The notes beneath the pieces are model-generated. The model saw only the letters and a list, made by a program, of their open reading frames with translations. It had not been told where the DNA came from and searched no databases. DNA of 64,000 bases, taken from positions 1 through 64,000 of IMG/VR virus record IMGVR_UViG_3300027969_003010; one strand, 5' to 3'. Each line of letters begins with the position of its first letter. Position 1 is the first letter of the stretch. Source of the stretch: a virus. Made by a program: the position numbers and the translations under genes. Below are positions 6,360 to 63,710 of this stretch, piece after piece.

Positions 6360-7551
6360 TAATTGGTACTGTAAATTGCCCTGGACTGGATTTAGTAATG
6401 ATCCAGACGGGAAAGCACGGCCGTGTTGTCTATATAAAGATTATATTAAAGACGACGCTGGTAAAATTATGTATGTACAAACTAGTACAGTCAGAGAAAT
6501 ATTTACTAGCAACTACATGAAAAATCTACGTCAGGATTTTAGAGACGGAAAACAACCCGCGGCATGTAGTACTTGTATTATAGATGAACAGAATAATTAC
6601 ACTAGTAAACGTCAACGCTATAACGACCAGTACAATAAAGAAATGCCTGTTAATTTTGACAAAGAGCCAGAGTTTCCTGTTGAATATCAAATGATACTAA
6701 GCAATGCTTGTAACTTAAAGTGCCGTAGCTGTACACCAAGTCACAGTAGTTTGTGGCAAGCCGAGCATAAAGTTATATGGGGTAATACTGGATACAGTAT
6801 GCCTGAAGGCCAAAGTGGAGAGAACGACAGCGTACTATGGCATAAACGAGATGAGTGGTTGCCTAGCGTACAACGTTTAGAGATTGTAGGCGGCGAACCA
6901 TTTTACATTAATCGTTGGAAGTTGCTGTGGGAAGAACTAATTGCAAAGGGACTTAGTAAAAAAGTCAATATGGATATTAGTTCTAACGGAACAATCTATG
7001 CCGGTGAAGTCGTTGAGAAATTAGTTAATAATTTTAGAAGTATTGGGCTAGGTTTGAGTATAGATGGCATGGGTCCGTTATACGAATATTTGAGACATCC
7101 AGGCAAGTGGGACGAGGTAGAAACTAATATAAAACAGTACCACGAACTACGCAAACAACTGGACACTAAAAGTTTTAGAGTAAGTATTAGCCACACGATA
7201 GGCTGGCTTAATGCATGGGAGCTTCCTGAGTTCCATACTTATATTAAAACACAAGCGCCGCTATTTGTAATATGGAACAATATTATACATTACCCGCAAC
7301 ATATGGCCATTTATATGATTCCTGCAAGTTTAAAACAACGTATAGAAGCTAAGTGGAGAGCATATGATTGGGGCACATATACCAACGACATAGAAGGTAT
7401 CATAACTTATATGAATAGTCAACAACCTACTGATGTAGAAATACGCAAAGCATACGAAACATTTAAAACACACGATGCAGTACGTAATGAAAACTTGTTA
7501 GACGTTATACCGGCAGAAATTATAGACGAGATTAAACCCTACTATGAATAA
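6346..7551 (+). CDS. radical SAM protein with twitch-like domain (divergent copy 4)
   Basis: 401 residues from the ATG that overlaps the previous gene by 14 bases; a longer frame reaches 6277 but lies wholly within copy 3. Auxiliary cysteines: C9 (YCKLPW), C27-C28 (RPCCLY) and CSTC near 74; core cluster CNLKCRSC at 122-129; the SAM motif is VGGEPFY rather than TGGEPLM. This arrangement (FCxxPW, PCC, CxxC, then CxxxCxxC) is that of the widespread phage twitch-domain radical SAM family, whereas copies 1-3 form a separate subgroup with CHHPP in place of PCC. The C-terminal FKTHDAVRNENLLDVIP is a relic of the shared signature. Product unknown. Confidence 0.88.
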   Translation: MTQSNNWYCKLPWTGFSNDPDGKARPCCLYKDYIKDDAGKIMYVQTSTVREIFTSNYMKNLRQDFRDGKQPAACSTCIIDEQNNYTSKRQRYNDQYNKEMPVNFDKEPEFPVEYQMILSNACNLKCRSCTPSHSSLWQAEHKVIWGNTGYSMPEGQSGENDSVLWHKRDEWLPSVQRLEIVGGEPFYINRWKLLWEELIAKGLSKKVNMDISSNGTIYAGEVVEKLVNNFRSIGLGLSIDGMGPLYEYLRHPGKWDEVETNIKQYHELRKQLDTKSFRVSISHTIGWLNAWELPEFHTYIKTQAPLFVIWNNIIHYPQHMAIYMIPASLKQRIEAKWRAYDWGTYTNDIEGIITYMNSQQPTDVEIRKAYETFKTHDAVRNENLLDVIPAEIIDEIKPYYE

Positions 7552-47358: not shown

Positions 47359-48204
47359 ATGACTGATTATTACCAAACACTAGGAGTTAGCGAGCAAGCT
47401 AGCTCAGAAGAAATTAAGCGAGCATATAGAAGCTTGGCCAATAAACATCATCCTGACAAGGGCGGTGACCAAGCTATGTTCAAAAATATAAGCGTTGCCA
47501 ACGATGTATTAAGCGACCCACAAAAACGTGCGGAGTACGATCAGCAACGTCGATTCCCACAAGGACAGCAATTTCATTTCCATACTGGAAATAATCCATT
47601 TGGAGATATTTTTGGCGGAGCAAGTCCATTTGGAGATATTTTTGGCGCAATGCATAGACAACAAGCACGTCGAAATAGAGATTTGAATATACAATGTCAA
47701 GTTACTTTATTAGACAGTTATCTTGGCAAACAACTAGAAGCACAATATCAATTACCTAGTGGTCGTACACAAACTGTTGTTATCAACGTACCTGCTGGAA
47801 TATCACACGGTGAAACTATCCGTTATCAAGGGCTGGGAGACGACAGCGTACAAGGTGCGCAACGTGGTGATCTTAATGTAACTATTATTGTTATGGGAGA
47901 TCCAAACTTTGAACGTAGAGGAAATGATTTATATACTACCGTGGAACTTACACCTATCGAATCTTTAATTGGTTGCAGAAAATCTGTTAGAACAATTAGT
48001 GGTCAACACATTGATATAGACATACGCCCTGGGGTAGACACTGGAGTTGAGTTTGCTAGTGCTGGACAAGGTTTTGTAGATATACAGCGACATGTCAAAG
48101 GAAGGTTTGTAACAGTTGTTAAGATTAGATCTAAACCAATAACCGATCCAGAATTAGTAGCAAGACTGAGACAATTAGATGCTGAAATTACACAAAGAGG
48201 ATGA
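47359..48204 (+). CDS. DnaJ/CbpA-type J-domain chaperone
   Basis: 281 residues. J domain residues 1-65 with the HPD motif at 31-33 (HHPDKGG), a Gly/Phe linker holding a duplicated SPFGDIFG-type unit (a perfect 23-base direct repeat at 47595-47617 and 47625-47647), and two C-terminal beta substrate-binding domains (LNIQCQVTLLDSYLGK onward; GDLNVTIIVMGDPNFERRGNDLY). No CxxCxGxG zinc finger, so class B, like CbpA. It would recruit host DnaK. It heads an early-type operon with deformylase and ClpA-like genes; overlap of 26 bases with the next. Confidence 0.9.
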   Translation: MTDYYQTLGVSEQASSEEIKRAYRSLANKHHPDKGGDQAMFKNISVANDVLSDPQKRAEYDQQRRFPQGQQFHFHTGNNPFGDIFGGASPFGDIFGAMHRQQARRNRDLNIQCQVTLLDSYLGKQLEAQYQLPSGRTQTVVINVPAGISHGETIRYQGLGDDSVQGAQRGDLNVTIIVMGDPNFERRGNDLYTTVELTPIESLIGCRKSVRTISGQHIDIDIRPGVDTGVEFASAGQGFVDIQRHVKGRFVTVVKIRSKPITDPELVARLRQLDAEITQRG

Positions 48205-48667
48205 TCCAATTCTTAAGCAACCAGCAGAACAATGGGACTTTGAGAACCATGTTAATGCGGCTGTTATAGAACGTGAGATGCTAGATCTGATGAAAGCTAG
48301 CAATGCTATTGGCCTGGCTGGAAATCAAGTTGGTTTGTTGCGCAAGGTGTTTGTTATGCGTACTACAGACGGACGTGAGTTTGGATGTTTTAATCCATGG
48401 ATCATGTTTGGCGATAACGACAAGATAGAAGGCGAGGAAGGTTGTTTAAGTTTTCCAAATCTCTGGCTTAAAGTCGCACGACACAATAAAATTACTGCCA
48501 GCTATCTTGACAATACAGGCAAACCGTGTATAATAGAATTAGAGGGCATTGATGCAAGATGCTTCCAACATGAACTGGATCATTTAAATGGGGTAACATT
48601 TACAGAATATGTAAGTGATTTAAAATTAAAGATGGCACGGAAAAAACAAAGGAAATTAAATGGTTGA
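48179..48667 (+). CDS. def: peptide deformylase
   Basis: 162 residues. Removes the formyl group from nascent N-terminal methionine. Motif 1 is GLAGNQVG near 45-52 (canonical GLAAPQVG), motif 2 EGCLSF with metal-binding C89, motif 3 HELDHLNG with H131, E132, H135. Start ATG lies within the end of dnaJ. Marine phages carry such genes, thought to support processing of rapidly turned-over or phage proteins. Longer C-terminal helix than some phage deformylases. Overlaps clpA-like gene by 8 bases. Confidence 0.9.
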   Translation: MLKLHKEDDPILKQPAEQWDFENHVNAAVIEREMLDLMKASNAIGLAGNQVGLLRKVFVMRTTDGREFGCFNPWIMFGDNDKIEGEEGCLSFPNLWLKVARHNKITASYLDNTGKPCIIELEGIDARCFQHELDHLNGVTFTEYVSDLKLKMARKKQRKLNG

Positions 48668-50945
48668 ACCAAGCGACAATCTACAAGCGGTTTTTGAAAA
48701 AGCTATTGAAACAGCTAAAAATCTTAACCACGAATATTTAACTATCGAACACTTGTTGTTTGCTATGTTGTGCGAAGAATCCTTTGCAAATGCTATTCAG
48801 GGATACGGAAGTGATCCAGAATATATTAAAAAGAATCTTGAACATTATCTAAAAAATAAATGTGACGAAATTACTGCTGGCGGGCCAGTAGCAAAACCAA
48901 AGAAAACTCAAGTAGTTGAACGTGTTCTTAATAAGGCATTTACACAAGTCTTATTCAACGGACGTCAACGTATTGAGAGTACAGATGTATTTCTAGCTAT
49001 GATGAGCGAGAAACGTAGCTGGGCGCACTTTTATATTCAGCAAGCTGAAATTGATAAAGAAAAATTCGCCGATTTCATTAATAATAACTTAGAAGGCGAA
49101 GCTGAAGAAGAGATGGAACAAGGTGACATTCAAGGTAACAAGGCGCTAAAAGCGTTTACAACAAATCTAAACGATAGTGTTAAGAAAAATAAAATTGATC
49201 CAGTTATTGGAAGGATTGATGAATTAGAAAATATTGCGCTAGCCATGGGCCGTCGAAGTAAAAATAATGTGATCCTTGTTGGTGACCCAGGTGTAGGTAA
49301 GACTGCTATTGCAGAAGGACTTGCTTATAACATTGTTAAAGGTGCTGTTCCAGATTTCCTTAAAGAGTATCAAGTATATAATTTGGACATCAGTGCTATG
49401 CTTGCTGGTAGTAAGTACCGCGGCGACTTTGAAGAACGCTTTAAGCTAGTACTCAAAGGATTGGCTAAGAAAGGCAAGACTATCTTGTTTATCGATGAAG
49501 CACACATGATTAGCGGTGCGGGCAGTGCAAGTAACTCAGCTAACGACTTGAGCAACATGATGAAGCCTGCACTAAGCAAAGGCACTATCAAAGTTGTAGC
49601 AAGTACTACATGGGAAGAGTATCGTAAGCACTTTGAAAAGGATCGTGCATTGATGCGCCGTTTCCAACGTATTACTGTTGACGAGCCAACACAAGAAGTT
49701 ACTATGCAGATTCTTAAAGGTATTAAAAAATACTACGAAGAACATCATAAAGTTAAAATTAAAGACGAAGCATTACAGGAAGCTATCAAATTGTCTGTCA
49801 AGTATCAAGCAGATAAGAAATTACCAGATAAGGCAATTGACTTAATTGACGTTGCATGTTCACGGTTTAATCTAAAAATGCCTGATAGCGAACGTATTGT
49901 TAACAGTGAAGGCATACGGTTTGAACTTGCTAAGATGGTTAAAATTCCAGAAGAAGTTGTTGCCGAACAAGAAAGCGAAGGACTTGTTAATTTACAAGAT
50001 CACCTGTCAAAAGAAGTATACGGTCAAGATACAGCCTTACAAGAAGTTGTGGACAAGATTGTTGTTGCACAAGCTGGATTGAAATCAGAGAACAAACCCA
50101 TTGGATCATTTGTATTCATGGGCCCAACTGGTACAGGTAAAACTGAAACTGCTAAGGCACTTGCTAAACACATGGGCACTAAACTGTTGCGTTTTGACAT
50201 GTCAGAGTATCAAGAAAAACATAGCATCTCTAAGCTGATTGGTAGTCCTCCGGGTTATGTTGGCTTTGAAGAAAATGCTGGCTTGTTGATTACACAAATT
50301 CAAGAAAACCCTAATGCTGTTCTACTGTTTGATGAAGTTGAAAAATCACATCCAGACGTAAGCACGATATTGTTACAAATGATGGATAACGGTTTTATTA
50401 CTGGTTCAAATGGTAAACAAGCTGACTGTCGTCAACTTATCCTTATCCTAACAACAAACGCTGGCGCACAGTCTGCTGAAAAGAACGCAATTGGCTTTGG
50501 TGCACAGGAAAAAGACTATAGCGATGCAGATTTGAAGAAATTCTTAACACCGGAGTTCCGAAATCGTTTAGATGGTATTATTACATTCAAGAAACTTGGC
50601 AAACCAGTTATGGTTAAGATTGTCAACAAGTTCATCGACGAAATGCGTGAGCAGGTTAAAACCAAAGGCATCCGTATTAAAATTAATAACGAAGCAATTG
50701 ATTGGTTAATTGAAAAAGGCTTCGATGCTAAGATGGGTGCTCGTCCGTTACAACGCACCATTGACAAGGAAATTAAACGTGACCTTGCTCGTATGATATT
50801 GTTTGGCGAACTCAAGAACGGCGGATGGTTACATATTAGTGTAGAAGAGGATAAAATTTTGCTTACAGCAAAAATTAAAACTCCAAAACTACCGCTAGTT
50901 GTAACTGAAGCTGAGACGGTTACTATAACAGAAAATGAAGTATAA
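48660..50945 (+). CDS. ClpA-like AAA+ unfoldase
   Basis: 761 residues, the length of ClpA (758). N-domain with NHEYLTIEHLLFAMLCEESF near 18-37; first AAA+ Walker A GDPGVGKT near 208, Walker B TILFIDEAHM near 277; second Walker A GPTGTGKT near 488, Walker B VLLFDEVEKSH near 555, and the IGF tripeptide (NAIGFGAQE near 610) in the ClpP-docking loop position, followed by TPEFRNRLDGIITF as in ClpA. No middle coiled coil, so not ClpB. No phage ClpP is seen; it would have to use the host peptidase. Early-type operon with DnaJ and deformylase. Confidence 0.92.
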   Translation: MVEPSDNLQAVFEKAIETAKNLNHEYLTIEHLLFAMLCEESFANAIQGYGSDPEYIKKNLEHYLKNKCDEITAGGPVAKPKKTQVVERVLNKAFTQVLFNGRQRIESTDVFLAMMSEKRSWAHFYIQQAEIDKEKFADFINNNLEGEAEEEMEQGDIQGNKALKAFTTNLNDSVKKNKIDPVIGRIDELENIALAMGRRSKNNVILVGDPGVGKTAIAEGLAYNIVKGAVPDFLKEYQVYNLDISAMLAGSKYRGDFEERFKLVLKGLAKKGKTILFIDEAHMISGAGSASNSANDLSNMMKPALSKGTIKVVASTTWEEYRKHFEKDRALMRRFQRITVDEPTQEVTMQILKGIKKYYEEHHKVKIKDEALQEAIKLSVKYQADKKLPDKAIDLIDVACSRFNLKMPDSERIVNSEGIRFELAKMVKIPEEVVAEQESEGLVNLQDHLSKEVYGQDTALQEVVDKIVVAQAGLKSENKPIGSFVFMGPTGTGKTETAKALAKHMGTKLLRFDMSEYQEKHSISKLIGSPPGYVGFEENAGLLITQIQENPNAVLLFDEVEKSHPDVSTILLQMMDNGFITGSNGKQADCRQLILILTTNAGAQSAEKNAIGFGAQEKDYSDADLKKFLTPEFRNRLDGIITFKKLGKPVMVKIVNKFIDEMREQVKTKGIRIKINNEAIDWLIEKGFDAKMGARPLQRTIDKEIKRDLARMILFGELKNGGWLHISVEEDKILLTAKIKTPKLPLVVTEAETVTITENEV

Positions 50946-51647: not shown

Positions 51648-52022
51648 ATGCGTATAAATGAACTTTGCGAAAGCGTTGACTTAGAATTAGGTAAAGAAGC
51701 CAAGGACCCAAATGATCCACACGGATTAGGGTTTGATTTAAAGGACGACTTAATATTCTTTATGCATCACGATGATGATGCATATCGCCGTCATACGTTT
51801 CCAGCTATATTAAAAATTAAAGACCAATTAGATGCTGGTAAAAAACCAGATTACAAGTTATTTGACAAAGCTGTTAAAGAAGCATACAATAAGTATTGTA
51901 CTAAATTTCAAATAAGAGAACTACCTTACGAATTAGAACAAGGCATGTTAGATGAAATGTGCCAACATATCTATGAAGAGGAATGTGGAAAAATTAAAGA
52001 CGGGCATTACAAGGATCAATAA
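51648..52022 (+). CDS. head-operon protein with targeting-like N-terminus
   Basis: 124 residues. N-terminus MRINELCESVDLELG fits the M(K/R)xxEhhxE form seen in several neighbours. The body is acidic and helical with DPNDPHGLGFDLKDDLIFFM, HHDDDAYRRHTFPA and a C-terminal MLDEMCQHIYEEECG. No enzyme motif. First gene of the late operon, 1 base-free contact (TAAGTG) with the next gene's GTG. Possibly an internal head or assembly protein. Confidence 0.62.
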   Translation: MRINELCESVDLELGKEAKDPNDPHGLGFDLKDDLIFFMHHDDDAYRRHTFPAILKIKDQLDAGKKPDYKLFDKAVKEAYNKYCTKFQIRELPYELEQGMLDEMCQHIYEEECGKIKDGHYKDQ

Positions 52023-53237
52023 GTGTTACTCAGAGAATTATTTGTTCGAGAAGTTGCTGAGGAAAAGGCGCCAGTACAACTAGGGCGGCCATTCAACCAT
52101 CCCGAACACTGGGTGATCTTTCACGGTGTAAGCGGCGTCCTTGAAGCACTACAACATTTTGACGAAATCAAAGCAGAGCCCAAACAGTTACGATTCAAGT
52201 GGGATGGCAATCCTCAGATCTATTGGGGCAGAGAACAAGCGGGCGGCCCATTAATTTTAGCAGGACATAATGGTTGGGGCAAAGGTGGTCGCAACACTGG
52301 CACCACAATGGATGATTTTACTAGTCCAGAAGCTGTTAAGAATTTTATTCTTAACAAAAGCGGGGAAGGTGCAAAGGGACAAGAGATAACTCCTGAGCGC
52401 AAACGTTTTGCAGAAGAGTTTGCAAGTTTATATCCTACATTTGACGCGGCCACTCCTAAAGACTTTGTAGGGTTTATATATGCAGATGCTATTTTTATGC
52501 CTGCTACTAAACCTAAAGTGGATGAAAGTGGTGTATACAACATGCATCCTAACCCGCATAGTGCTACCGGGTATCATGTTAGCAAAGACAGTGAGTTAGG
52601 TAAACGTATAGCAGGTGCAAAACTTATGATTGCGGCTCACGGCACATTTGATACATTTGGAGCCCCGGATGCTGAACAAAAACCTAAAGATGACTTTAGT
52701 GATTTTAACGGAACACCCGGATTAATTGTATTAGATCCAATTTATAACGGCACTGCACCGTCTAATGCAAAAAGTGGTGAAGAACTTATTGCTAAGAAAG
52801 ATGTGGTATCAAAACAAACATGGTTAGAACAGAATGGTCAAAAAATTGATCAATTTGTTGGCAGTGTTTCCCGTACAGACAAGAATGGAATTTTTTATCC
52901 ATTCTTGAATCAAAAAAATGCGGCTGGTACATTTGAACAAATTAACTCAAAGGTGTTTTTTGATTGGATGGCAGAACCTCAAGCAAATGGTAAACCTCGT
53001 GTGTCGTTACCCAAGCAACAAGTAATATATCAACTAGAACAACAAACTGGTGCTTTGGACGAAGTATTTCATGCTATGAAAGTTATTAGAGATATTAAAC
53101 ACGACATATACAAAATAACAAACGATACACACGATGCTGATGTTTGGGCCACAAACAGCGAAGGTTTTGTTCGCTATGCTCAACCGCATCACAAACATGG
53201 TAATATGAAAATTGTTGCACCAGGGTGGAAAAATTGA
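52023..53237 (+). CDS. phage protein with ligase-like KWDG motif
   Basis: 404 residues from GTG directly after the upstream stop. N-terminus MLLRELFVREVAEEK is targeting-peptide-like. RFKWDGNPQIYWGR near 58-71 has the KxDG signature of covalent nucleotidyltransferases (ligases, capping enzymes), followed by a glycine-rich GHNGWGKGGRNTGT and, later, FVGFIYADAIF and GLIVLDPIYNG that could be strands of the same fold. I believe this is a family widespread in T4-like marine phages without assigned function. C-terminus AQPHHKHGNMKIVAPGWKN. Whether the lysine is adenylated is untested. Confidence 0.6.
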   Translation: MLLRELFVREVAEEKAPVQLGRPFNHPEHWVIFHGVSGVLEALQHFDEIKAEPKQLRFKWDGNPQIYWGREQAGGPLILAGHNGWGKGGRNTGTTMDDFTSPEAVKNFILNKSGEGAKGQEITPERKRFAEEFASLYPTFDAATPKDFVGFIYADAIFMPATKPKVDESGVYNMHPNPHSATGYHVSKDSELGKRIAGAKLMIAAHGTFDTFGAPDAEQKPKDDFSDFNGTPGLIVLDPIYNGTAPSNAKSGEELIAKKDVVSKQTWLEQNGQKIDQFVGSVSRTDKNGIFYPFLNQKNAAGTFEQINSKVFFDWMAEPQANGKPRVSLPKQQVIYQLEQQTGALDEVFHAMKVIRDIKHDIYKITNDTHDADVWATNSEGFVRYAQPHHKHGNMKIVAPGWKN

Positions 53238-54562
53238 AAGCATATCACTTAACAGAATCTGAACAAGATCAAGCGGCTATTATATTTGGTCGATTTAATC
53301 CTCCGCACTTTGGTCACAGAGCCGCGTGGGATATTGCGGCTGAATTTCCTATTTGGTACGTTGGCACAAATCAAAGTACACAGGGTCCTAAAGATCCCCT
53401 TCCATTTGATATCAAAATGGAAGCTATGAAAACGTTTATGCCTGAATTAGAAGATCACTTAGTAGCAGAACAAAGTTGGTTTACTCTAGCATCGATGGTT
53501 TATAAACAACATGGTGCTGTTACATTGCACATTGTTACAGATGCAAATGATGCAAAAATATTTGTACCTGCACTACAAAAACAAAACGGTTTGGAAGGCC
53601 CGCACGGATTTTACAAATTTAACGATATCGTTTGGGCTGAAGCAAAAAGACAAAGCGAAGCAAGCAAGGTTAGACAAGCAGTTAAAGACAATAATCCACA
53701 AGACTTTGAAACATATTCAGGAGTATCTGCTAATACAGAAGTAGCAGGACATCCTTATTTCACCTTAGTAAGACATTTTATGATGCCTTACATGCAAGCT
53801 GAAATAGATAAAGAAAAGCAAAAAGCCGAAAGAGAAAGACTTAAAGCTGAAAAAGAACAACAAAAAGCAGAGAAGGCCGCTTTGAAACAACAAAAAGCAA
53901 AAGGTCCAGCGCAAGAGTTAGCAGAGTCACAGCGTATGAGTGCGCAAGTTAAATTACAACGTGCATGGGAACGCGAGCAAGCTAAATCAACTGCTAGTCG
54001 CCAACGTGCTGACCAAGCTAAAGCTGAGTTTGAAAAAGAATGGAAAACCAAGCAAGAAAAAGAAAAACAAAGTGTGGCAGAAGTAAAACAACGTTTAGAC
54101 CCTAAGTGCTGGAAAGGCAAACACAAAGAAGGTACTAAGATCAAAGGCGGCATCAGAGTTAATAACTGTGTGCCTAATGAAGGACGAATACGTATTGGTC
54201 AGGCGCTAGAACAAATTTACGAAGCTAAAGCTCGTGAATCATTAAAGAAATTTGAACAAGATGCAATCCCAGGCATGACTGTATATGACTCTTTAAATAA
54301 TAGTGATTCGTATGCTTCTTATAGATTCGGAGTAGCACTAGCACCGAGCCCAGAGTTCACTGACATGTCTAAGAAAAGTGCTCTAGCAAATTCTTTTGCT
54401 ATGATTGATTACACTGATGCAGATGCACAAATTCGCAAAGGCGCTGAAAAAACAATGGGTGTTAAATCAAGTTCCAGTACTTCGGCCAAATCCAAAGAGC
54501 TAGAAGATACCAACAAACTAAGCCCAGTTGCCGCAACTAAACGTAATAAATACGGTATATGA
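53234..54562 (+). CDS. nucleotidyltransferase-domain head-operon protein
   Basis: 442 residues from TTG 53234 overlapping the upstream TGA (GTG 53225 is the alternative). N-terminus KAYHLTESEQ is targeting-like. Cytidylyltransferase-fold motif IIFGRFNPPHFGHRAAW near 15-31 carries the HxGH site (HFGH). Residues about 190-285 are a long Lys/Glu/Ala/Gln coiled coil. HKEGTKIKGGIRVNNCVP near 300 is a short conserved block. The C-terminus (YASYRFGVALA ... AEKTMGVK ... LSPVAATKRNKYGI) is a module repeated in the gene at 54842. It could be an injected enzyme analogous in logic, not sequence, to T4 Alt. Confidence 0.7.
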   Translation: MKAYHLTESEQDQAAIIFGRFNPPHFGHRAAWDIAAEFPIWYVGTNQSTQGPKDPLPFDIKMEAMKTFMPELEDHLVAEQSWFTLASMVYKQHGAVTLHIVTDANDAKIFVPALQKQNGLEGPHGFYKFNDIVWAEAKRQSEASKVRQAVKDNNPQDFETYSGVSANTEVAGHPYFTLVRHFMMPYMQAEIDKEKQKAERERLKAEKEQQKAEKAALKQQKAKGPAQELAESQRMSAQVKLQRAWEREQAKSTASRQRADQAKAEFEKEWKTKQEKEKQSVAEVKQRLDPKCWKGKHKEGTKIKGGIRVNNCVPNEGRIRIGQALEQIYEAKARESLKKFEQDAIPGMTVYDSLNNSDSYASYRFGVALAPSPEFTDMSKKSALANSFAMIDYTDADAQIRKGAEKTMGVKSSSSTSAKSKELEDTNKLSPVAATKRNKYGI

Positions 54563-54852
54563 AACAATACAGAATTACAAGCCAGGATTTAAATCAAGAT
54601 AGTCCAGATGACTGCTATCTTGCGCCAGACGATCCTGTACAAGAATTAAAAATACTATCAGGTATGGGCGGACTGGGTGGCAATGCTAGACTGCACGAGT
54701 ATCGTGCAAGCCAAGGAAGCAATATCAGCGTTACCGGCAACGAAAACGGACGCATACAGCGAGAAAAAAACATACAACCAGGAACTCCAGAATGGTTTAA
54801 ACTATGGTTCGGTTTACCGTACATGACTGGAGAAAAGAAAAATGAGAGCTAA
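54559..54852 (+). CDS. small head-operon protein
   Basis: 97 residues. ATGA overlap with the nucleotidyltransferase gene. Contains PDDCYLAPDDPVQELKIL, LGGNARLHEYRASQG and GTPEWFKLWFGLPYMTG, the last a common C-terminal pattern (PGTPEWFxLWFxxPYLTG) of small proteins in T4-like aquatic phages. No membrane segment or enzyme motif. Function unknown; position suggests a virion or assembly role. Confidence 0.62.
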   Translation: MKQYRITSQDLNQDSPDDCYLAPDDPVQELKILSGMGGLGGNARLHEYRASQGSNISVTGNENGRIQREKNIQPGTPEWFKLWFGLPYMTGEKKNES

Positions 54853-55192
54853 AGAATTTTTAAAAGAAACCAATAAAACAGGACAAGTACGTAACGGTTT
54901 GAAACAAAGCGGCCCTTATGCCAAACGCTACGACGAGCTGGATACATTTTACGATATGTATCGTTTAGGTATTGCTTTAGCAAACGACAAAGCACCTAGT
55001 CGTGGTGTGGTGTCAAATAGCCCAACAGTTTGGGTTCGTAATGATGAAGAAGCTGAAATGCTGACAAATGCAGAACGTACCATGGGAATTAAAGGAACTG
55101 TAGTAGTGCCGCAAGGCGACAGTGACGAATACCCTGATACTAACGATACAAGTCCCGTAGCAAGTATCAAGCGCAATAGGTACGGTGTATAA
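54842..55192 (+). CDS. small head-operon protein with targeting-like start
   Basis: 116 residues. N-terminus MRAKEFLKETNKTGQ resembles the T4 capsid-targeting peptide (MKTYQEFIAEA). The rest repeats the C-terminal module of the nucleotidyltransferase protein: YDMYRLGIALAND near 38, AERTMGIKGTVV near 79 and TSPVASIKRNRYGV at the end. So the module exists both fused and free. Overlaps its neighbours by 11 and 1 bases. Confidence 0.65.
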   Translation: MRAKEFLKETNKTGQVRNGLKQSGPYAKRYDELDTFYDMYRLGIALANDKAPSRGVVSNSPTVWVRNDEEAEMLTNAERTMGIKGTVVVPQGDSDEYPDTNDTSPVASIKRNRYGV

Positions 55193-55404
55193 TGCGAGCT
55201 AAAGAATTTATTAGCGAAACTGCTAGTGCAGGTGCTACTAGCTCAGGAAGCATAGCGACCGTAGTAAATCCCAACATTGCAGGTGGTGTAAACAACGCCA
55301 AACCACCTAAAATTATGCAGAAAAAGCATAAAAACGGCACTGCCGTTAATGCCTTAGATATGATGGGAGTCAGCCTATTTGGCGGCGAAACCATTAAAAG
55401 ATAA
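55192..55404 (+). CDS. small head-operon protein with targeting-like start
   Basis: 70 residues. MRAKEFISETASAGATSSG duplicates the first six residues of the preceding protein (MRAKEF) and has ISE|T as a possible prohead-protease site. The body is basic, Gly/Asn/Lys-rich (NAKPPKIMQKKHKNGTAVNA) and unstructured in appearance, ending MGVSLFGGETIKR. TAATG overlap with the previous gene. Likely an internal head protein. Confidence 0.6.
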   Translation: MRAKEFISETASAGATSSGSIATVVNPNIAGGVNNAKPPKIMQKKHKNGTAVNALDMMGVSLFGGETIKR

Positions 55405-55430: not shown

Positions 55431-56486
55431 ATGGCCAAACAAGATCTATATAAAACAGCTCAACAAAGTACTAAACTTTTCAAATTAATCCAAGATGAAA
55501 ATCTATTAGAAAGTTGGGTTAAAAACAAAATTATCAGTGCCGCAGAAGATATTTCTACGGTATATCAGTATTTGAACTACGAAAAACAGTTCAAAGAATA
55601 CAGTCAAATGATTGCTGAAAGTACAAACCTAAGCGAGGGCAAACGTGCTTTGTTAACTAGCAAACTTGCAGAAGCTAAAGAAAAAGTTAAAGAGCTTAAG
55701 AAAAAAGCCGCCAAAGAAAAGTCCGAAAAAATGGACGAAGATAAAGACGAAATGAAAGTTGGCGATACAAAGAAAACACGCACAGGTGAATTGACAAAGA
55801 CTAGCACAGGTGTTGTACATAAGAACACTAGCTACCATGATGACGGTGATGAAATTGCTTCAAACGCTAAATCAGGTAAAGGTGTTAAGAGCCATGCTAA
55901 AGCGCAGTCAGCCGCTGAGAAGAAAGAACAAGCTCCAAAATTAAAACAAAGTCCTAAGAGTGCTAAGACATGGGGCATGAAAGACAACGAGAAATTTGAC
56001 AACCGTGATAAAGAAGTTGATGAAGGTTCATACTTAGGTAAGAAATTAACTGCTGAAGCTAAGATGTGCCCAATTTGCAAGAAAGATCCTTGCAAGTGCG
56101 GTAAAGGTAATACTAAAAAGAAAACTGTTAAAGAAGCTGACTTAGGTAAGCACAACAACGGTAAGACAACTGGATTCAAAGCAGTTGCTAAAGCCGCTGG
56201 TGGTGGTGAGAAAGGTAAAAAAATTGCTGGCGCACAACTAGCTAAAATGAAAGCATCTGGTAAAATTAAAGAAGCTATTGCTCGTGCTAAAGATGTATTA
56301 GAAGGCAAAGGCAAGAAAGGCGACGGTAACTTAGCTAATAATGCTAAACCTTACGACAAAGTAACACGCGGTGATGTTATCGCTGGACGTCTTGGTAAAG
56401 ACGAAAAAGGCGGCAAGAAAGAAGTTGTTAAGGAATCTACAGAGCTAGATCGCATGAAAACTATCATGCATCGTTTAAACGGATAA
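55431..56486 (+). CDS. Lys-rich virion-type protein with CxxC/CxC metal knuckle
   Basis: 351 residues. Helical N-terminus (KTAQQSTKLFKLIQDENLLES) resembles the first segment of head/neck-associated proteins; a long basic low-complexity middle (KVKELKKKAAKEKSEKMDED) follows. MCPICKKDPCKCGKG near 212-226 could bind a metal. C-terminus ESTELDRMKTIMHRLNG is a short helical tag of a kind found at the ends of several structural proteins of such phages. Several (L/V/I)xE sites (AESTN, KEATE-like KEAD) could be prohead-protease targets. Probably a head-interior or scaffold-related protein. Confidence 0.6.
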   Translation: MAKQDLYKTAQQSTKLFKLIQDENLLESWVKNKIISAAEDISTVYQYLNYEKQFKEYSQMIAESTNLSEGKRALLTSKLAEAKEKVKELKKKAAKEKSEKMDEDKDEMKVGDTKKTRTGELTKTSTGVVHKNTSYHDDGDEIASNAKSGKGVKSHAKAQSAAEKKEQAPKLKQSPKSAKTWGMKDNEKFDNRDKEVDEGSYLGKKLTAEAKMCPICKKDPCKCGKGNTKKKTVKEADLGKHNNGKTTGFKAVAKAAGGGEKGKKIAGAQLAKMKASGKIKEAIARAKDVLEGKGKKGDGNLANNAKPYDKVTRGDVIAGRLGKDEKGGKKEVVKESTELDRMKTIMHRLNG

Positions 56487-56490
56487 TACT

Positions 56491-57324
56491 ATGGACATGA
56501 AGAAAATTCTTCAGGCCTTAGATAGTACCGCAAGTAAACCAGTAGAAGGGTCTGACAACATGAAGCAATTTCTGTCCATAGTGACAGAAGGTGCCAATCC
56601 GCATAAAGTTACATTGCCTGTTCAAATGGCCATGCAACATTATGCGGAGCCAGTTGTTGCTCAGCCAAAAACAATTAAAGAAGTTAAAAAGACAGCAATG
56701 TCCAGCATGTTGTATCAATACTATACAAATGCAGAACATCGATTAGCCGAAGAAGATAACACCAAAAAAGAAATTATTAGTGAACAAGCTAGACGTATTG
56801 CAGATCGTATTCTTAAAAGAAAAGAAGAGAAACCCGTGGCGGAATCATTCAATCCCGAATATGATGACGAAGCTGGTATGGCTCAGGGCAGTTTGCATAC
56901 ATTGAAGCGAGCAGTAGACGGGTTAATGAACACCATTGAAGATAAAGAAAATCTTCCAGAATGGTGTCAAGAAAAAATTTCCCTAGCTGAAGATTATCTT
57001 GTTACTGTTTGGGATTATTTACAAAGCGAAGAAGCACAAGGTATGCAGGAAGGTCGACGTAATTACGATGACAACCGCACAGGTTTTGGTCGGCGCGAAC
57101 GTGAAGATGACGAGTATCATGTTCCAGATCCTGTAGACAATCGAATAGCATATAAAGTTATTGCCACTGTAACTACACAAGATGGCGGTGAAGAAAAGAA
57201 AGGTGTCACAGTAAAAACTACCGGCGGTCCAAAACATGCTGAAACAGTTGCTACAAAACATTTAGAAAATGCTGGTTTACAAGTAACTGGCATTGTTAGT
57301 GTACACGATACGGGCCCGGTGTAA
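56491..57324 (+). CDS. virion-type protein with conserved EYDDEAGMA domain
   Basis: 277 residues. A domain at about 122-180 reads EYDDEAGMAQGSLHTLKRAV followed by DKENLPEWCQEKISLAEDYL and VTVWDYLQ, a recurrent module in T4-like aquatic phage structural proteins. The first 40 residues (DMKKILQALDSTASKPVEGS, then FLSIVTEGANP) contain VTE|G as a candidate maturation site. C-terminal 55 residues form a ferredoxin-like beta-alpha domain (YKVIATVTTQDGGEEKKGVT). Four bases after the previous stop. Function unknown. Confidence 0.62.
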   Translation: MDMKKILQALDSTASKPVEGSDNMKQFLSIVTEGANPHKVTLPVQMAMQHYAEPVVAQPKTIKEVKKTAMSSMLYQYYTNAEHRLAEEDNTKKEIISEQARRIADRILKRKEEKPVAESFNPEYDDEAGMAQGSLHTLKRAVDGLMNTIEDKENLPEWCQEKISLAEDYLVTVWDYLQSEEAQGMQEGRRNYDDNRTGFGRREREDDEYHVPDPVDNRIAYKVIATVTTQDGGEEKKGVTVKTTGGPKHAETVATKHLENAGLQVTGIVSVHDTGPV

Positions 57325-57327
57325 AAT

Positions 57328-57774
57328 ATGGATGAATTAGTCAAAGCAATGAAGATAGCGTTTGCTAGTGAGAATGTCTACTATGTTAAGGCATCATCAT
57401 TCCATTGGAATATAGAAGGACACAATTTTCCTCAATATCATACTTTACTAGATACCATCTATACGGAAGTATACAATGCACGTGACGGGTTTGCTGAAAA
57501 TATTCGTAAACTAGGTTCATACGCACTTGGTAGCAATAGTTCATATATCAAATACAGCGCAATACAAGAAAGTAATGAAGTACCAGAGCCACAAGCTATG
57601 CTTGCCGAACTACTAGCAGATAGTGAAAAAATTGCTAATTTTTTAAAAATTGTATTCGATCTTGCAGAGCAAAACGGCGAGCACGGGCTAAGTAATTTTA
57701 TAGCTGATCGACAAGATGCACATAAAAAACATGCATGGATGTTGCGTAGTACATTAAAGACAACAGGAATATAA
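57328..57774 (+). CDS. Dps-family ferritin-like protein
   Basis: 148 residues, the size of bacterial Dps (mini-ferritin, 12-mer). Helix A-B block ENVYYVKASSFHWNIEGHNF then PQYHTLLDTIYTEVYNARDG and FAENIRKLGSY is the Dps signature. All five intersubunit ferroxidase ligands known from Listeria Dps (H31, H43, D47, D58, E62) are found with identical spacing: H26, H38, D42, D53, E57. No Lys-rich DNA-binding tail at either end. It lies three bases after one virion-type gene and four before another, so it is expressed late, perhaps packaged or protecting DNA during packaging from oxidative damage. Confidence 0.88.
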   Translation: MDELVKAMKIAFASENVYYVKASSFHWNIEGHNFPQYHTLLDTIYTEVYNARDGFAENIRKLGSYALGSNSSYIKYSAIQESNEVPEPQAMLAELLADSEKIANFLKIVFDLAEQNGEHGLSNFIADRQDAHKKHAWMLRSTLKTTGI

Positions 57775-57778
57775 TATT

Positions 57779-60622
57779 ATGGATTTAAGAACACTTCTTA
57801 ATAAGCTAGACAAGCTAGATAGTCATCAGGTGTTGATGGAAAGCAATACTATTCGTGAAGAAATACTTTCAGCAGAATTGCAATTGTTAAAAGAAGCATA
57901 CTCTGCGTTAATGGAACGAGCTCTTAAGAGAGAACTTGATGCATTACGTAATGTTAAAGATGTAGAACTACGCAAAAGCAAGTTAGCCGCACTAGCATCA
58001 AAGAACGGTTACCCTGGAATATTTGATCCAGTTACTGGTAAGTGGGTCGATAACGAAGGAAATTTTGCTTGGTTTGGGCCTTATCAAGCAGAAGTTGAAA
58101 AGATGATGGACGATGGGCTTGTTCCTCCTGAAGCACAAACTAGTGCATTCTGGGGATTAATGGGCAAAGATAAAGCTGAAGCAATAAAAATAAGTACTGC
58201 AAATGCCAGTAGATTTGAAATGATTGACGGTGCAGACGAAATTATAGATAAAGCAAATCAAAGTAAGCCAGCAATGGATGAATCTTTTGCCAAAGGATCG
58301 TTAGCACGAGCATTAACAGAAGATTTTGGTTATTCATCTAACTATCTCATAGAAGCTATTAGTACTACTGAGCATTTAAAATTAAAAGCATACATTGAAA
58401 AACTTAATAATCCTGAATATAAAGACGATGGTGAAGTTCAAAAAGTAATTTTTAAATATCAAGAATATGTAAAATATCGCGATTTACTAATTGCTAAGAT
58501 TAAAGAAGCATTAGCACGATTCACAGCTAAAAAGGCGCCGGCGCCAAAAGCGGCTGAAGCTGGGGCAAGCACGTTTAGTACTAATCCACTGGATTATAAA
58601 GGGGATGCCGCAACCACAGTTAACTATGGTGCATTTGGAGAACCTAAACTTAATGAATCTCGCGGTGCGCTAAAAGAAGAATTCTACATTGTTCCCCATA
58701 AAGATAATACATCAAGCGTTGTGCATTTTTATTTAGACGAAAGTGGCAATGTAGTTGGATACGTTGTTACTGAAGATATCGAGGCATTAGGGCGTGGCGC
58801 ATTAGATGGTTTAACGTTTGGATGGGGCGATAATGCTGTTGCAGGGATTATTTCCATGTACAAAGGCACTCCTTACGGTGCAGAACTAATTAAACAAATT
58901 AAAGCATCCGAAGAAGCAAAATCTCGTGCGCCAGTTTGGTATTACGGTGGAATGATTGCTGGTGGTGCTGGCTGGGGTGGAACCAGTTTAGCCGGCAACT
59001 TGGCGGCCGCTGGCGTAAACGTGGCTAGTGATTTTGTTAGAACTCCTGTAAATGATAAAATTAAACAACAGTATAAAGATGATCAAGCAAAAAAACTTAA
59101 AAAAGTTCAAGGAACTGTTGGTGCAGAACCAACAGGTGTGCCTGATGCTAACACTGTTAATGCTGTAAAAACAAAGGCCGCACCAGTTACAGCAAAAGTT
59201 AATACACCAGCACCTACAGGTGAAATGGGAGAAGTCTTTACAGCGTTTGGTGCTAAAGACATGAATGGTCTTTTTGTTAAATTAAAAAGCCAAGGTGTGA
59301 AAACTATTGACCAATTAGGTGATGCTATTGGAAAAGCTCTAAAGATCGAACCAATGACTGTGGTAAAGCCAGGCGGTGCACCTGTTGCAGAATCAATAAC
59401 TTATTCTAGCATGAGCGAAAGCGAGCGCATGGCTTATTTGCGTAATCGTCTAAGCAACATAGAACAGACTGAACAGTTAGATGAAGCTATTCCTGGATTG
59501 GGTTGGCTATTTGGCAAAATACTTGGTACCGGTGGAACGGCCGTTATTAAAGGGTTAGCAGGAATTGAAAAAGTTTTTGGTAAAGGCGTTAAAGAAATAG
59601 CACTACCTGGTGCAGGCGCGGCTAAACAAATTTGGAGATTAGAAACTACTGGAGTAAACGCTGGTAAATGGTCCGCTGTTGTAACTAGAAACCGTGTTCG
59701 TACTAGAGTATTTAAAACTGCTGACGAAATAGCCGATGATCTAAAGAATGCATTACACAGTGGGTTTGTACCAAAAGCTAGACCAGGTCAACCTACATTA
59801 CCTGCGGCTCCTCCATCCGGATGGATAAATCCTGGATCACAAGTTGCAAGTGCTGAATTAAATGGTGTGAAATACATAAAAGATGCAGACGGTAAGTGGT
59901 ACATGAAAAATTCCTCTACAGGAGTCCACGTACCAGTAGTTGACAGAGCTGTGTTACAATCATTAGAGCAGGGTGCTATAAGAACAGGTATGCTAGGTCA
60001 ATTAGCCGCAAAATATCCAAGACTTGCGGCTGGATTTAAAGGTGTTGGTTCAATACTTAAATTTGGTTGGAATAACAAGTGGTGGATTGCGTTGGCCGCT
60101 ATTATTGCGGCTGGATATTGGGCATGGTCAAACAGACCAGAAGAACCACCTGTGCCACCTGAACTACCACCGGGAGCTGATGCAGAAGCAGAACCAGGCG
60201 GATTACCTCTTGCACCAGGTGGGTTAGAAGGTGGAATACCACCAAACGCAGACGGCACATGTAAAGACGGCTATACTCTTGATCCTGTTAAAAAACTATG
60301 TATGCCTGGAATACCACCAAACGCAGACGGCACATGTAAAGACGGCTATACTCTTGATCCTGTTAAAAAACTATGTATGCCTGATAAGAAAAATAACAAG
60401 GAACCTGGTGAGCAAGATGGTAAAAAAGTATCTCCGGAAGTGCAACAATCAGCTGACAATCTTCGAAAATTGTTGCAACAATTAAAAGACATGTATCCAG
60501 CAGATAAAGAAACTAGAGACATTGAGGCTGAAGTTGAGGATGCATTGAAAGGTATTCCTGTTAGATCAAGTGCGCAAGAAGTCAATCCAACATCTACACC
60601 AAATAATCGCTATAATTTCTAA
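57779..60622 (+). CDS. large virion-type protein with membrane helix and Cys repeats
   Basis: 947 residues. N-terminus DLRTLLNKLDKLDSHQVLME then SNTIREEIL resembles the preceding gene's start. Residues 318-420 hold a glycine-rich, partly hydrophobic region (ALGRGALDGLTFGWGDNAVAG; MIAGGAGWGG). A membrane helix WWIALAAIIAAGYWAW lies near 769-784, then a Pro/Glu segment and two identical 25-residue Cys repeats (GIPPNADGTCKDGYTLDP, then VKKLCMP). Helical C-terminus. A pilot/ejection or injected membrane protein is an idea supported by the late operon and the membrane segments, not by a known family. Confidence 0.65.
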   Translation: MDLRTLLNKLDKLDSHQVLMESNTIREEILSAELQLLKEAYSALMERALKRELDALRNVKDVELRKSKLAALASKNGYPGIFDPVTGKWVDNEGNFAWFGPYQAEVEKMMDDGLVPPEAQTSAFWGLMGKDKAEAIKISTANASRFEMIDGADEIIDKANQSKPAMDESFAKGSLARALTEDFGYSSNYLIEAISTTEHLKLKAYIEKLNNPEYKDDGEVQKVIFKYQEYVKYRDLLIAKIKEALARFTAKKAPAPKAAEAGASTFSTNPLDYKGDAATTVNYGAFGEPKLNESRGALKEEFYIVPHKDNTSSVVHFYLDESGNVVGYVVTEDIEALGRGALDGLTFGWGDNAVAGIISMYKGTPYGAELIKQIKASEEAKSRAPVWYYGGMIAGGAGWGGTSLAGNLAAAGVNVASDFVRTPVNDKIKQQYKDDQAKKLKKVQGTVGAEPTGVPDANTVNAVKTKAAPVTAKVNTPAPTGEMGEVFTAFGAKDMNGLFVKLKSQGVKTIDQLGDAIGKALKIEPMTVVKPGGAPVAESITYSSMSESERMAYLRNRLSNIEQTEQLDEAIPGLGWLFGKILGTGGTAVIKGLAGIEKVFGKGVKEIALPGAGAAKQIWRLETTGVNAGKWSAVVTRNRVRTRVFKTADEIADDLKNALHSGFVPKARPGQPTLPAAPPSGWINPGSQVASAELNGVKYIKDADGKWYMKNSSTGVHVPVVDRAVLQSLEQGAIRTGMLGQLAAKYPRLAAGFKGVGSILKFGWNNKWWIALAAIIAAGYWAWSNRPEEPPVPPELPPGADAEAEPGGLPLAPGGLEGGIPPNADGTCKDGYTLDPVKKLCMPGIPPNADGTCKDGYTLDPVKKLCMPDKKNNKEPGEQDGKKVSPEVQQSADNLRKLLQQLKDMYPADKETRDIEAEVEDALKGIPVRSSAQEVNPTSTPNNRYNF
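60233..60382 (+). repeat. perfect 75-base tandem duplication
   Basis: Units 60233-60307 and 60308-60382 are identical base for base on reading, in frame, 25 codons each with two cysteines. Absence of synonymous change implies a recent duplication or ongoing slippage/recombination. Confidence 0.9.
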
Positions 60623-61040: not shown

Positions 61041-63710
61041 ATGAGCTATGTAGACGCATGGTTTGACCGTAATAACGATGTTATTAAAGTTGTCGAACGC
61101 AACAAAAAAGGTGAAAGGGAATTCAGAGACATTCCTGTACGCCACACATTTTACTATAAAGACGCCCGTGGGAAGTATCTTTCAATTTACGGTGACGCTC
61201 TAAGCAAAGTTGTAGTTAAGAGTACTAAAGAACTACGCAAAGAACAAGCAATCAATTCAGGTAAACAATTATTTGAATCTGATATTAATCCAATATTTGT
61301 CACATTAAGCGAAAATTATCTTAATGCGGACGCTCCAAAACTAAACGTAGCGTTTTTCGATATTGAAGTGGACTTTGATCCAGAAAGAGGCTATAGCACA
61401 CCAGACGATGCGTTCATGCCTATTACTGCTATCGCTGTTCACTTACAATGGATGGAAACTATGGTTTGTCTAGCAGTTCCTCCTAAGACACTAACTATGG
61501 AAGAAGCTACCGCTATGGTTGAAGAGTTTCCAAATACTATGCTGTTTAAAACAGAAGCAGAAATGTTGGATGTATTTTTAGATTTGATTAAAGAAGCAGA
61601 CATATTAACTGGTTGGAATTCAGAAGGTTATGATATTCCTTATACTGTCAACCGCGTTACTAAGGTACTGAGTAAGGACGATACTAGACGGTTCTGTTTG
61701 TTTGATCAATATCCTAAACGCAGAGAATATGAAAAGTTTGGGCGGCAATCAGTTACATATGATCTAGTGGGTCGTGTACACCTGGACAGTCTTGAACTGT
61801 ATCGTAAGTACACTTATGAAGAACGCCATAGTTATCGATTGGATGCTATTGCAGAATATGAGTTGGGCGAACGTAAAACACAATACGAAGGCACACTGGA
61901 TCAACTTTATAATCATGATTTTAAAAAGTTCATTGAATATAACAGACAAGACTGTGCGCTTCTTGATCGCCTAGACAAGAAGCTTAAATTCCTTGACCTT
62001 GCTAACACACTGGCACATGAAAATACTGTGCTACTGCAAACTACTATGGGTGCCGTGGCTGTAACTGAGCAGGCTATTATTAACGAAGCACATAGACGTA
62101 ATATGCAAGTACCTAATCGTACTAAAATGGACGACCGTGAAGAAAATACTGCGGCGGCTGGTGCGTATGTTGCATATCCTAAAGAAGGCATTCACGACTG
62201 GATTGGTTCATTAGACATTAACAGTCTATATCCTAGTGCCATTCGTGCGCTTAACATGGGCCCAGAAACTATTATTGGTCAGTTACGTCAGACAATGACA
62301 CAAGAGTATATCGATAATAAGATGGCAAAAGGTTCTAGTTTTGCGGCAAGCTGGGAAGGTATCTTTGGATCACTAGAATATACTGCTGTGATGAATCAAG
62401 AGATTGGCACAGACATTACTATCGACTGGGAGAATGGCCAGACTGATGTTATTAGTGCGGCCGAAGTTTATAAGTTAATATTTGACAGTCATCAGCCCTG
62501 GGTACTAAGTGCTAACGGTACTATCTTTACTTACGAAAAGGAAGGTATTATTCCCGGCTTGTTAAAGCGTTGGTATGCTGAACGTAAAGAGATGCAGGCC
62601 AAACTCAAAGACTGTATTAAGACTGGCAACAAAATTGAAGAAGAGTATTGGGACAAACGACAGTTGGTCAAGAAGATTAATCTAAACAGTTTGTATGGTG
62701 CTATTTTGAATCCTGGTTGTAGATTCTTTGACAAACGTATCGGACAGTCAACTACACTAACAGGTCGTCAGATTGTTAAACACATGGCGGCCAAAGTAAA
62801 TGAAATTGTTGCCGGAGACTATGACTATCGCGGTAAAGCTATTATCTATGGCGATACAGACTCATGTTATTTTTCAGCATATAAGACATTACAACAAGAT
62901 ATTGATGCTGGTAATATTGAATGGACTAAAGAAAATGTGATTGCACTATATGATAATATTGGCGAGGAAGTTAATACAACCTTTCCGCAGTTTATGTTGG
63001 ATACATTTCACGTGCCAAAGACCCGTGGTGAAGTTATTAAAGCGGGTCGTGAGATTGTAGGTAGTAAGAGTTTGTTTATTACTAAAAAGCGTTATGCCGT
63101 GCTGTACTATGACAAAGAAGGCAAACGGGCAGACGTAGATGGTAAACCTGGTAAGATCAAGGCCATGGGCTTGGATTTGAAGCGTAGTGATACGCCGGAA
63201 TTTATTCAGAACTTTTTAAGTGATGTACTTGAAAAGGTCTTAACAGGAGCCACCGAAACTGATGTATTGGCACACATAAGCGAATTTAGATTGAGATTTA
63301 AGAGTCGGCCGGGTTGGGAAAAAGGTAGTCCAAAACGTGCTAACAAAGTTACTGAATATCAAGCTAAAGAAGCAAAAGCTGGTAAGGCTAATATGCCAGG
63401 GCATGTCCGTGCTAGTATTAATTGGAATACATTGAAGCGTATGTTTGGCGACAAGTATAGCATGAATATCACAGACGGACAAAAAGTAATTGTTTGCAAA
63501 CTAAAACAAAATCCTATGGGCTTTACATCGGTAGCATATCCTGTAGATGAGTTACGTTTGCCACAATGGTTTAAGGACATGCCGTTTGATCATGAAGAAA
63601 TGGAACAGACTATTATTGATAACAAATTAGATAACCTAATCGGAGTATTGAAATGGGACGTTCGCAGTACTGAAGAAAAGAACACTTTTAATTCACTATT
63701 TGAGTTTTAA
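61041..63710 (+). CDS. family B DNA polymerase (gp43 type)
   Basis: 889 residues, near T4 gp43 (898). 3'-5' exonuclease motif I FFDIEVDFDP near 105-114; exo motif with GWNSEGYDIPY near 190; exo III-like YNRQDCALLD near 300. Polymerase motif A SLDINSLYPSAIR near 390-402, motif B KKINLNSLYGAILNPG near 545-560, motif C IIYGDTDSCYFS near 601-612. C-terminus VRSTEEKNTFNSLFEF ends in a short acidic/aromatic tail like the clamp-binding peptide of gp43 (NSLFEF). Replicative enzyme of the phage, paired with the clamp loader at 40217. Confidence 0.95.
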   Translation: MSYVDAWFDRNNDVIKVVERNKKGEREFRDIPVRHTFYYKDARGKYLSIYGDALSKVVVKSTKELRKEQAINSGKQLFESDINPIFVTLSENYLNADAPKLNVAFFDIEVDFDPERGYSTPDDAFMPITAIAVHLQWMETMVCLAVPPKTLTMEEATAMVEEFPNTMLFKTEAEMLDVFLDLIKEADILTGWNSEGYDIPYTVNRVTKVLSKDDTRRFCLFDQYPKRREYEKFGRQSVTYDLVGRVHLDSLELYRKYTYEERHSYRLDAIAEYELGERKTQYEGTLDQLYNHDFKKFIEYNRQDCALLDRLDKKLKFLDLANTLAHENTVLLQTTMGAVAVTEQAIINEAHRRNMQVPNRTKMDDREENTAAAGAYVAYPKEGIHDWIGSLDINSLYPSAIRALNMGPETIIGQLRQTMTQEYIDNKMAKGSSFAASWEGIFGSLEYTAVMNQEIGTDITIDWENGQTDVISAAEVYKLIFDSHQPWVLSANGTIFTYEKEGIIPGLLKRWYAERKEMQAKLKDCIKTGNKIEEEYWDKRQLVKKINLNSLYGAILNPGCRFFDKRIGQSTTLTGRQIVKHMAAKVNEIVAGDYDYRGKAIIYGDTDSCYFSAYKTLQQDIDAGNIEWTKENVIALYDNIGEEVNTTFPQFMLDTFHVPKTRGEVIKAGREIVGSKSLFITKKRYAVLYYDKEGKRADVDGKPGKIKAMGLDLKRSDTPEFIQNFLSDVLEKVLTGATETDVLAHISEFRLRFKSRPGWEKGSPKRANKVTEYQAKEAKAGKANMPGHVRASINWNTLKRMFGDKYSMNITDGQKVIVCKLKQNPMGFTSVAYPVDELRLPQWFKDMPFDHEEMEQTIIDNKLDNLIGVLKWDVRSTEEKNTFNSLFEF

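Follow-up and report, generated by a model that had tools for sequence, protein, structure and literature searches.

The window studied here is a stretch of 64,000 nucleotides (positions 1 to 64,000) of IMG/VR virus record IMGVR_UViG_3300027969_003010, a 70,855-base fragment of a T4-like phage that also carries genes for a gp43-type DNA polymerase (61041-63710), a clamp loader, PhoH and a dCMP deaminase. Here, we report a cluster of six consecutive plus-strand genes with near-zero gaps (51648-55404), five of which begin with a short peptide, hereafter the tag, resembling the capsid-targeting sequence (CTS) of T4 internal proteins (Table 1). The cluster is best explained, and in our view probably so, as a capsid-targeting cargo island whose tagged products would be loaded into the prohead, cut by a gp21-type protease and injected. 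An earlier note on this DNA had listed the five N-termini, which read as it claimed when coordinates and starts were re-checked; its description of them as a series holds for the five tagged genes but omits the untagged 97-aa gene in between.

Table 1. Features of the cluster and of two tag-like neighbours (a slash marks the predicted cleavage point)
Feature	Position	Strand	Start codon	N-terminus	Remarks
124-aa protein	51648..52022	+	ATG	tag MRINELCES (LCE/S)	family not assigned
404-aa DUF6267 protein	52023..53237	+	GTG	tag MLLRELFVRE	KWDG; Pfam PF19782
442-aa protein	53234..54562	+	TTG	tag MKAYHLTES (LTE/S)	HxGH cytidylyl/adenylyltransferase domain at about residues 15-185; phrog_395
CWKG...NNCV module	54083..54181	+			residues 284-316 of 442-aa protein
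C-terminal module of 442-aa protein	54284..54559	+			ends SPVAATKRNKYGI; homologous to residues 30-116 of 116-aa protein
97-aa conserved protein	54559..54852	+		MKQYRITSQD, untagged	
116-aa protein	54842..55192	+	ATG	tag MRAKEFLKE (LKE/T)	then C-terminal module ending SPVASIKRNRYGV
70-aa protein	55192..55404	+	ATG	tag MRAKEFISE (ISE/T)	then TASAGATSSGSIATV, copy of capsid junction and arm
277-aa neighbour	56491..57324	+		tag-like MKQFLSIVTE/G at internal Met24	
947-aa neighbour	57779..60622	+		MDLRTLLNKLD...VLMES	

The TTG start of the 442-aa gene overlaps the TGA of the preceding gene, starting instead from a GTG at 53225 would lengthen the protein by three residues, and the non-ATG arrangement (GTG at 52023, TTG at 53234 over the previous stop) is kept in orthologues. 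The 124-aa protein gave zero matches in PHROG and Pfam searches; its orthologues mostly begin MRI[NKRTQ][ED]L[CLF]E.

The likeness to the T4 targeting peptide MKTYQEFIAE is real. A fixed strict regular expression (^M[KRQN].{3,4}[FLIYM][ILVFMCT][^P]E), set before any whole-genome count, caught T4 ipII and ipIII and 0/20 other T4 coding sequences (CDS) tested, ipI being among the latter and thus missed. The (L/I)xE cleavage motif proposed in the earlier note is present in four tags (LCE, LTE, LKE and ISE), whereas VRE stands at residue 10 of the 404-aa protein; that protein also reads LRE at residue 5, and its orthologues have IRE or LKE in place of VRE. A looser expression (M[RKL]xx..[FLH][LIVCT]xE type), fitted to the five window tags, describes a form shared by five of the six cluster genes (hydrophobic residue at about 7-8, E at about 9-10) and matched none of the 65 other predicted contig genes at their first start (1.63 expected by shuffling); at a later start it matched two, the 277-aa and 947-aa neighbours. 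The greedy gene caller used for this own-contig count swapped the 70-aa gene for an antisense open reading frame (ORF). Around gp43 in related phages (best 80 of at least 600 stretches), the strict expression matched 36/401 non-redundant plus-strand genes upstream of gp43 and 0/393 downstream, with 1.40 and 1.11, respectively, expected by shuffling (Fisher 9e-12, which overstates independence because genes within one side are partly related). The strict form undercounts: in a 223-kb relative (G021) it matched four genes, none within the cluster, because that cluster carries LREL-type tags.

Comparison of N-termini across relatives, proposed as a check in the earlier note, showed that the tag recurs in orthologues, where it may be swapped or lost. 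DUF6267 proteins begin MLLRELFxxE in most relatives, MRAFEFLxEA in five (L016, L048, L065, L067 and L078) and MRLRELFEA in two (L148 and L159), while cytidylyltransferases begin MKAYHLTES, MKLRELFEA, MILRELFES, MNLRELFES or MNLVELFITE. One tag type thus stands on otherwise unrelated proteins and is separable from them. Across 24 sequences of the 404-aa family, the share of the top residue was 0.75 for residues 1-10, 0.37 for residues 11-20 and 0.70 for residues 21-40, and the linker between tag and domain differed in almost all relatives. The tag is predicted to be disordered in the single model made, that of the 404-aa protein (mean predicted local distance difference test [pLDDT] score, 86.2; predicted template modelling score, 0.80; pLDDT below 50 at residues 1-4 and 6-14). 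Codons 2-7 of the MxLRELF set carried 971 synonymous versus 100 non-synonymous differences (25 distinct sequences), and therefore the peptide, rather than the DNA, is conserved; the excess was weaker in the MRAxEF set (149 versus 60) and in the MRIxEL set (518 versus 355). In the 70-aa family (371 synonymous versus 1319 non-synonymous) the tag varies, and selection on the peptide was not seen. A nucleotide-level constraint on the first codons, such as ribosome binding or a late promoter, would fit the position of every tag at a gene start, but the synonymous excess in these three tag sets leaves it scarcely credible.

Neighbouring genes share more than tags. The CWKG module (about 33 residues, DPKCWKGKHKEGTKIKGGIRVNNCV) recurs, strongly conserved, in dozens of proteins that are otherwise unrelated, from phage contigs of up to 344 kb, frequently right behind a tag. 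It occurred in 60/2284 distinct ORFs of the loci, 30 of the 60 being strictly tagged versus 119/2224 of the others, an association that is supportive only, because many loci were recruited via this module. A looser form is present in S-SZBM1_139 and S-CREM2 gp160, cyanophage virion proteins detected by mass spectrometry. Judging by its cysteines, the module may be a small unit with a structural or metal-binding role. The C-terminal module ending SPVAxxKRNxYG[IV] recurs in the 442-aa protein, in the 116-aa protein (54929-55189) and in many cluster genes of relatives. To count independent tagged families, proteins encoded around gp43 were clustered by single linkage; the result was left unused, as shared modules chained unrelated proteins into one component of 285. 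The C-terminal end of the 351-aa protein (55431-56486), KGDGNLANNAKPYDKVTRGDVIAGRLG, is also found near the N-terminus of S-RIM8 SXDG_00169, which adjoins the cytidylyltransferase of that phage; going by this sequence match, it is another mobile module of this neighbourhood.

Since neighbouring genes share modules besides tags, the cluster region recombines, and the common N-termini could be left over from duplication, or from recombination at the starts of genes (a shared 5' cassette), with no targeting role. The tag is kept while the linker behind it drifts, however, its codons vary silently, it stops at the same glutamate as the capsid junction described below, and tagged homologues are found in virions; we regard such an origin as improbable.

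A link to the head protease comes from the 70-aa protein. The gp21-type (S77) protease, which the earlier note had proposed to look for, was found in 6/12 gp43-related contigs but not in the window's own contig, and a gp23-type capsid protein was found in the same six (16 contigs searched). Three of these six (G019, G021 and G023) have a tagged cluster upstream of gp43; another contig, G024, has no tag within its 4 kb of available upstream sequence. In all six contigs the capsid protein reads TR[KR]YL[AMI]ES followed by an arm, GATSAGNVATLNRV, and by analogy with the T4 rule YLxE/S would be the capsid maturation site. The window 70-aa protein reads KEFISE/TASAGATSSGSIATV, a copy of the capsid junction and the following arm. 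When 291 ORFs of the contig were searched with the capsid junction peptides of G021 and G019, the 70-aa protein ranked top (scores, 64 and 57; runner-up, 35 and 34; best of 300 shuffles, 52 and 47). Within G021, the sole junction match beyond the capsid gene was the 70-aa homologue in its cluster (58; maximum of 200 shuffles, 51). Against their own capsid proteins, the virion-listed S-CREM2 gp160 scored 95 (shuffled maximum, 63) and S-SCSM1_97 scored 83 (shuffled maximum, 57), two independent instances with a different arm. The mimicry is not universal, because no second copy of the capsid junction was found in S-SZBM1 (best score, 39; shuffled maximum, 58). Capsid-arm copies in view are thus the window 70-aa family, S-CREM2 gp160 and S-SCSM1_97, and in five other contigs larger proteins begin with a TRYVLES/ASGGGTSAG-like sequence.

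We tentatively suggest, at somewhat less than even confidence, that aquatic T4-like phages may use two head addresses: short swappable tags, and copies of the capsid junction and arm on small separate proteins. If so, docking or cleavage of the junction-copy proteins would take place precisely where the capsid arm sits, and a scan for both signals would list the injected proteome of a phage from sequence alone.

Published virion proteomes were compared for three cyanophages with printed mass spectrometry lists: S-CREM2 (52/219 CDS in the virion set), S-SZBM1 (30/218) and S-SCSM1 (48/282, a count of record labels; PMC9602691 gives 45). A homologous cytidylyl/adenylyltransferase is virion-listed in each: S-CREM2 gp154 (Table 3 of PMC10665884), S-SZBM1_140 (PMC9146016) and S-SCSM1_91 (PMC9602691). 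In their records, these begin MKNFSSFLTE/A, MRFRQFIIE/A and MKSFLQFLKE/A, respectively. The strict expression was run genome-wide on all start codons, and matches at annotated starts were counted. Virion-listed matches were S-CREM2 gp6 (SAM hydrolase), gp13, gp14 (APH-like kinase), gp136 and gp154, together with S-SZBM1_140 and S-SCSM1_91, so that the pooled count was 7/130 virion versus 6/589 other CDS (p = 0.0036), or 7/130 versus 3/589 under a post hoc requirement for K, R or Q at residue 2. Looser tags are present on the S-CREM2 virion proteins gp12 (LRFASFMAE/A, residues 17-25) and gp15 (MNFSEFNES). The S-CRM01 kinase, reported from virions as stated in PMC10665884, begins MISFDQFLSE, and its neighbours 127, 129 and 131 have tag-like starts. 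Virions of S-SM1 were found to contain the cytidylyltransferase orthologue group T4-GC190 (PMC3037559), whose P-SSM2 member begins MKSFSQFLTE/T.

A partner other than the head (replication complex, membrane or tail), or a role as degradation signals, could be read from the adjacency of the cluster to gp43, away from head genes. The capsid junction copy and the virion homologues nonetheless point to the head, and the tagged genes of S-CREM2 are scattered (gp6-gp14, gp136 and gp154); we give such a role very little credence.

Several observations weigh against capsid targeting. Neither gp21 (PF03420) nor gp23 (PF07068) was found in searches of the window's own contig; the missing PF03420 is uninformative, because the contig is a fragment and 14 control genomes gave no match. 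The strict expression was set after the window tags, the T4 peptide and some cyanophage N-termini had been viewed (those of S-CREM2 gp6, gp13 and gp14, S-SCSM1_30 and the non-virion gp32 and gp35 were unseen), and it matches 2/5 window tags, most of the five deviating from the T4 sequence. It also matches proteins outside the virion sets (S-CREM2 gp32, gp35 and gp175; S-SZBM1 191 and 192; S-SCSM1 30), and phage by phage the enrichment is significant only in S-CREM2 (p = 0.020; S-SZBM1, 0.36; S-SCSM1, 0.31). Two cytidylyltransferases among the relatives (L096 and L113) are untagged, the enzyme domain beginning immediately; the KWDG homologues of four cyanophages are untagged; and that of S-SZBM1 is not among its 30 detected virion proteins.

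Taken with these points, the capsid-targeting reading is largely supported by homology. The cargo island would sit immediately upstream of gp43 in a set of T4-like phages. In each tagged protein, the first 8-10 residues would act as a CTS that binds the prohead core, so that the tagged protein is enclosed in the prohead; a gp21-type protease would then cut after the (L/I)xE glutamate and release the mature protein within the head, and with the DNA it would pass into the next host. We infer core binding, cleavage, release and injection in the window phage, as well as the roles of its enzymes. The predicted cargo includes the HxGH nucleotidyltransferase and the KWDG (DUF6267) protein, and the 70-aa protein carries a copy of the junction and arm of the capsid protein itself. 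The earlier note's reading of the set as packaged enzymes is partly supported: it gains from the T4-peptide likeness and the tagged virion homologues, but some enzyme homologues are untagged.

The tagged set does include, as that note held, a nucleotidyltransferase-fold protein (442 aa) and a KWDG protein (404 aa). The latter matches PF19782 (1.3e-11; 44.9 bits versus a cut-off of 27), and K59 W60 D61 G62, E380 G381 V383 and K396 are invariant in 24/24 sequences. The KxDG, EGxV and distal lysine fit motifs I, IV and V of ligase/capping-type nucleotidyltransferases. Its model had no Foldseek match at E <= 0.001; in a VIA structure search, all 50 of the matches listed were RNA, DNA or tRNA ligases, the best being modest (Z, 7.4; root mean square deviation, 4.0; 176 aligned). 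Motifs and model together indicate that it is probably a ligase-type nucleotidyltransferase. A search of the phages collection for DUF6267 gave zero matches at the limit used, and no paper on DUF6267 was found within the open-licence literature. The 442-aa protein consists of the HxGH nucleotidyltransferase domain, a lysine/glutamate-rich stretch, the CWKG module and the C-terminal module; it matches phrog_395 (1.1e-11) and falls under the cut-off of 21 for PF01467 (19.6 bits). GRFNPPHxGH is invariant in 13/13 cytidylyl/adenylyltransferase sequences, and the domain appears NMNAT/cytidylyltransferase-like. Sequence searches of the PDB with two of the cluster proteins gave nothing useful, and the 442-aa protein had no match at 0.01. 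In S-SZBM1, S-RIM8, P-SSM3 and Melnitz, a KWDG gene stands either beside the cytidylyltransferase gene or separated from it by one gene. The KWDG homologue is untagged in the cyanophages and tagged in Melnitz, a Methylophilales phage in which it begins MINFSKYITE and the cytidylyltransferase begins MKKFSEIIEA.

Reviews discuss NAD+ and RNA-repair enzymes packaged in phage heads as a form of counter-defence (PMC9503650, PMC7824862), and by analogy early repair or NAD+/RNA counter-defence is a plausible role for the cargo. The proteins might instead be packaged and passive, as core or filler proteins like T4 IPII and IPIII, which are dispensable and described in the available sources as of unknown role, with the enzyme domains idle after entry. 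Invariant catalytic motifs (GRFNPPHxGH in 13/13; KWDG and EGxV in 24/24) speak against idle enzymes, and we consider passive filling unlikely.

The biology of the T4 CTS is known, including the view that T4 relatives load varied proteins via such tags (PMC9026906, PMC5694885). As in the gp21-cut CTS of T4 IPII, IPIII and Alt, the tags here have an M-K/R start and an aromatic or aliphatic residue ahead of [IL]xE at residues 7-10, the tag is common to unrelated proteins, and gp21 and gp23 homologues exist in relatives of the window phage. The window cluster differs in bringing together several tag types (LREL- and MRAxEF-based), in placing them on HxGH and KWDG enzymes, in swapping them between orthologues and in that, on this fragment, its own protease was not seen. 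Cyanophage virion enzymes (NMNAT/cytidylyltransferase, APH-like kinase and SAM hydrolase in S-CREM2, S-SZBM1 and S-SCSM1; T4-GC190 in S-SM1) have the same cytidylyl/adenylyltransferase domain and the same kind of tag; they were published as virion-associated with contamination not excluded, a point left open by the S-CREM2 authors (PMC10665884), and the accessible parts of these reports give no tag or mechanism. In P1, too, an N-terminal part of the injected protein DarB directs it into the head, but that signal is about 30 residues long and belongs to another phage family. Head ejection proteins of phiKZ and SPN3US have propeptides cut after E by a gp21 relative, and two paralogues with identical N-termini; their propeptides, as far as described, are mostly over 100 residues long and use an AxE motif.

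We would class the system as a T4 capsid-targeting variant whose new element is mimicry of the capsid junction. No paper linking CTSs with cyanophage virion enzymes was found in the open-licence literature; relative to the literature found, the additions here are the island of enzymes, the exchange of tags between orthologues, the concordance with virion lists of cyanophages and the copied capsid junction. Cyanophage proteomics lists virion enzymes but cannot separate cargo from contamination, and a short tag on those enzymes would give both a mechanism and a predictor. T4-style protein delivery would extend to uncultured aquatic phages and to nucleotidyltransferases, a kinase and a SAM hydrolase, enzymes that would act on the host within the first minutes, and the capsid-junction copy ties the tags to the head protease by sequence alone.

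Downstream of the cluster, the 277-aa and 947-aa proteins begin MDMKKILQALD and MDLRTLLNKLD, respectively, followed by tag-like VTE/G and LME/S sites; these starts are a possible second N-terminal type, and the 947-aa protein is possibly a further internal protein. A Dps/ferritin-like protein without a tag (57328-57774) lies within the cargo cluster and is kept in relatives, where its position varies. Directly upstream (47359-50945) is a conserved run of genes that visual inspection of their translations identified as DnaJ-like, peptide deformylase-like and ClpA/B-like ATPase. Elsewhere in the window, four radical-SAM-like proteins are encoded in tandem (2302-7551), with a UDP-glucose dehydrogenase-like gene next at 8783, and one open frame of 4610 aa (18950-32782) probably encodes a tail protein.

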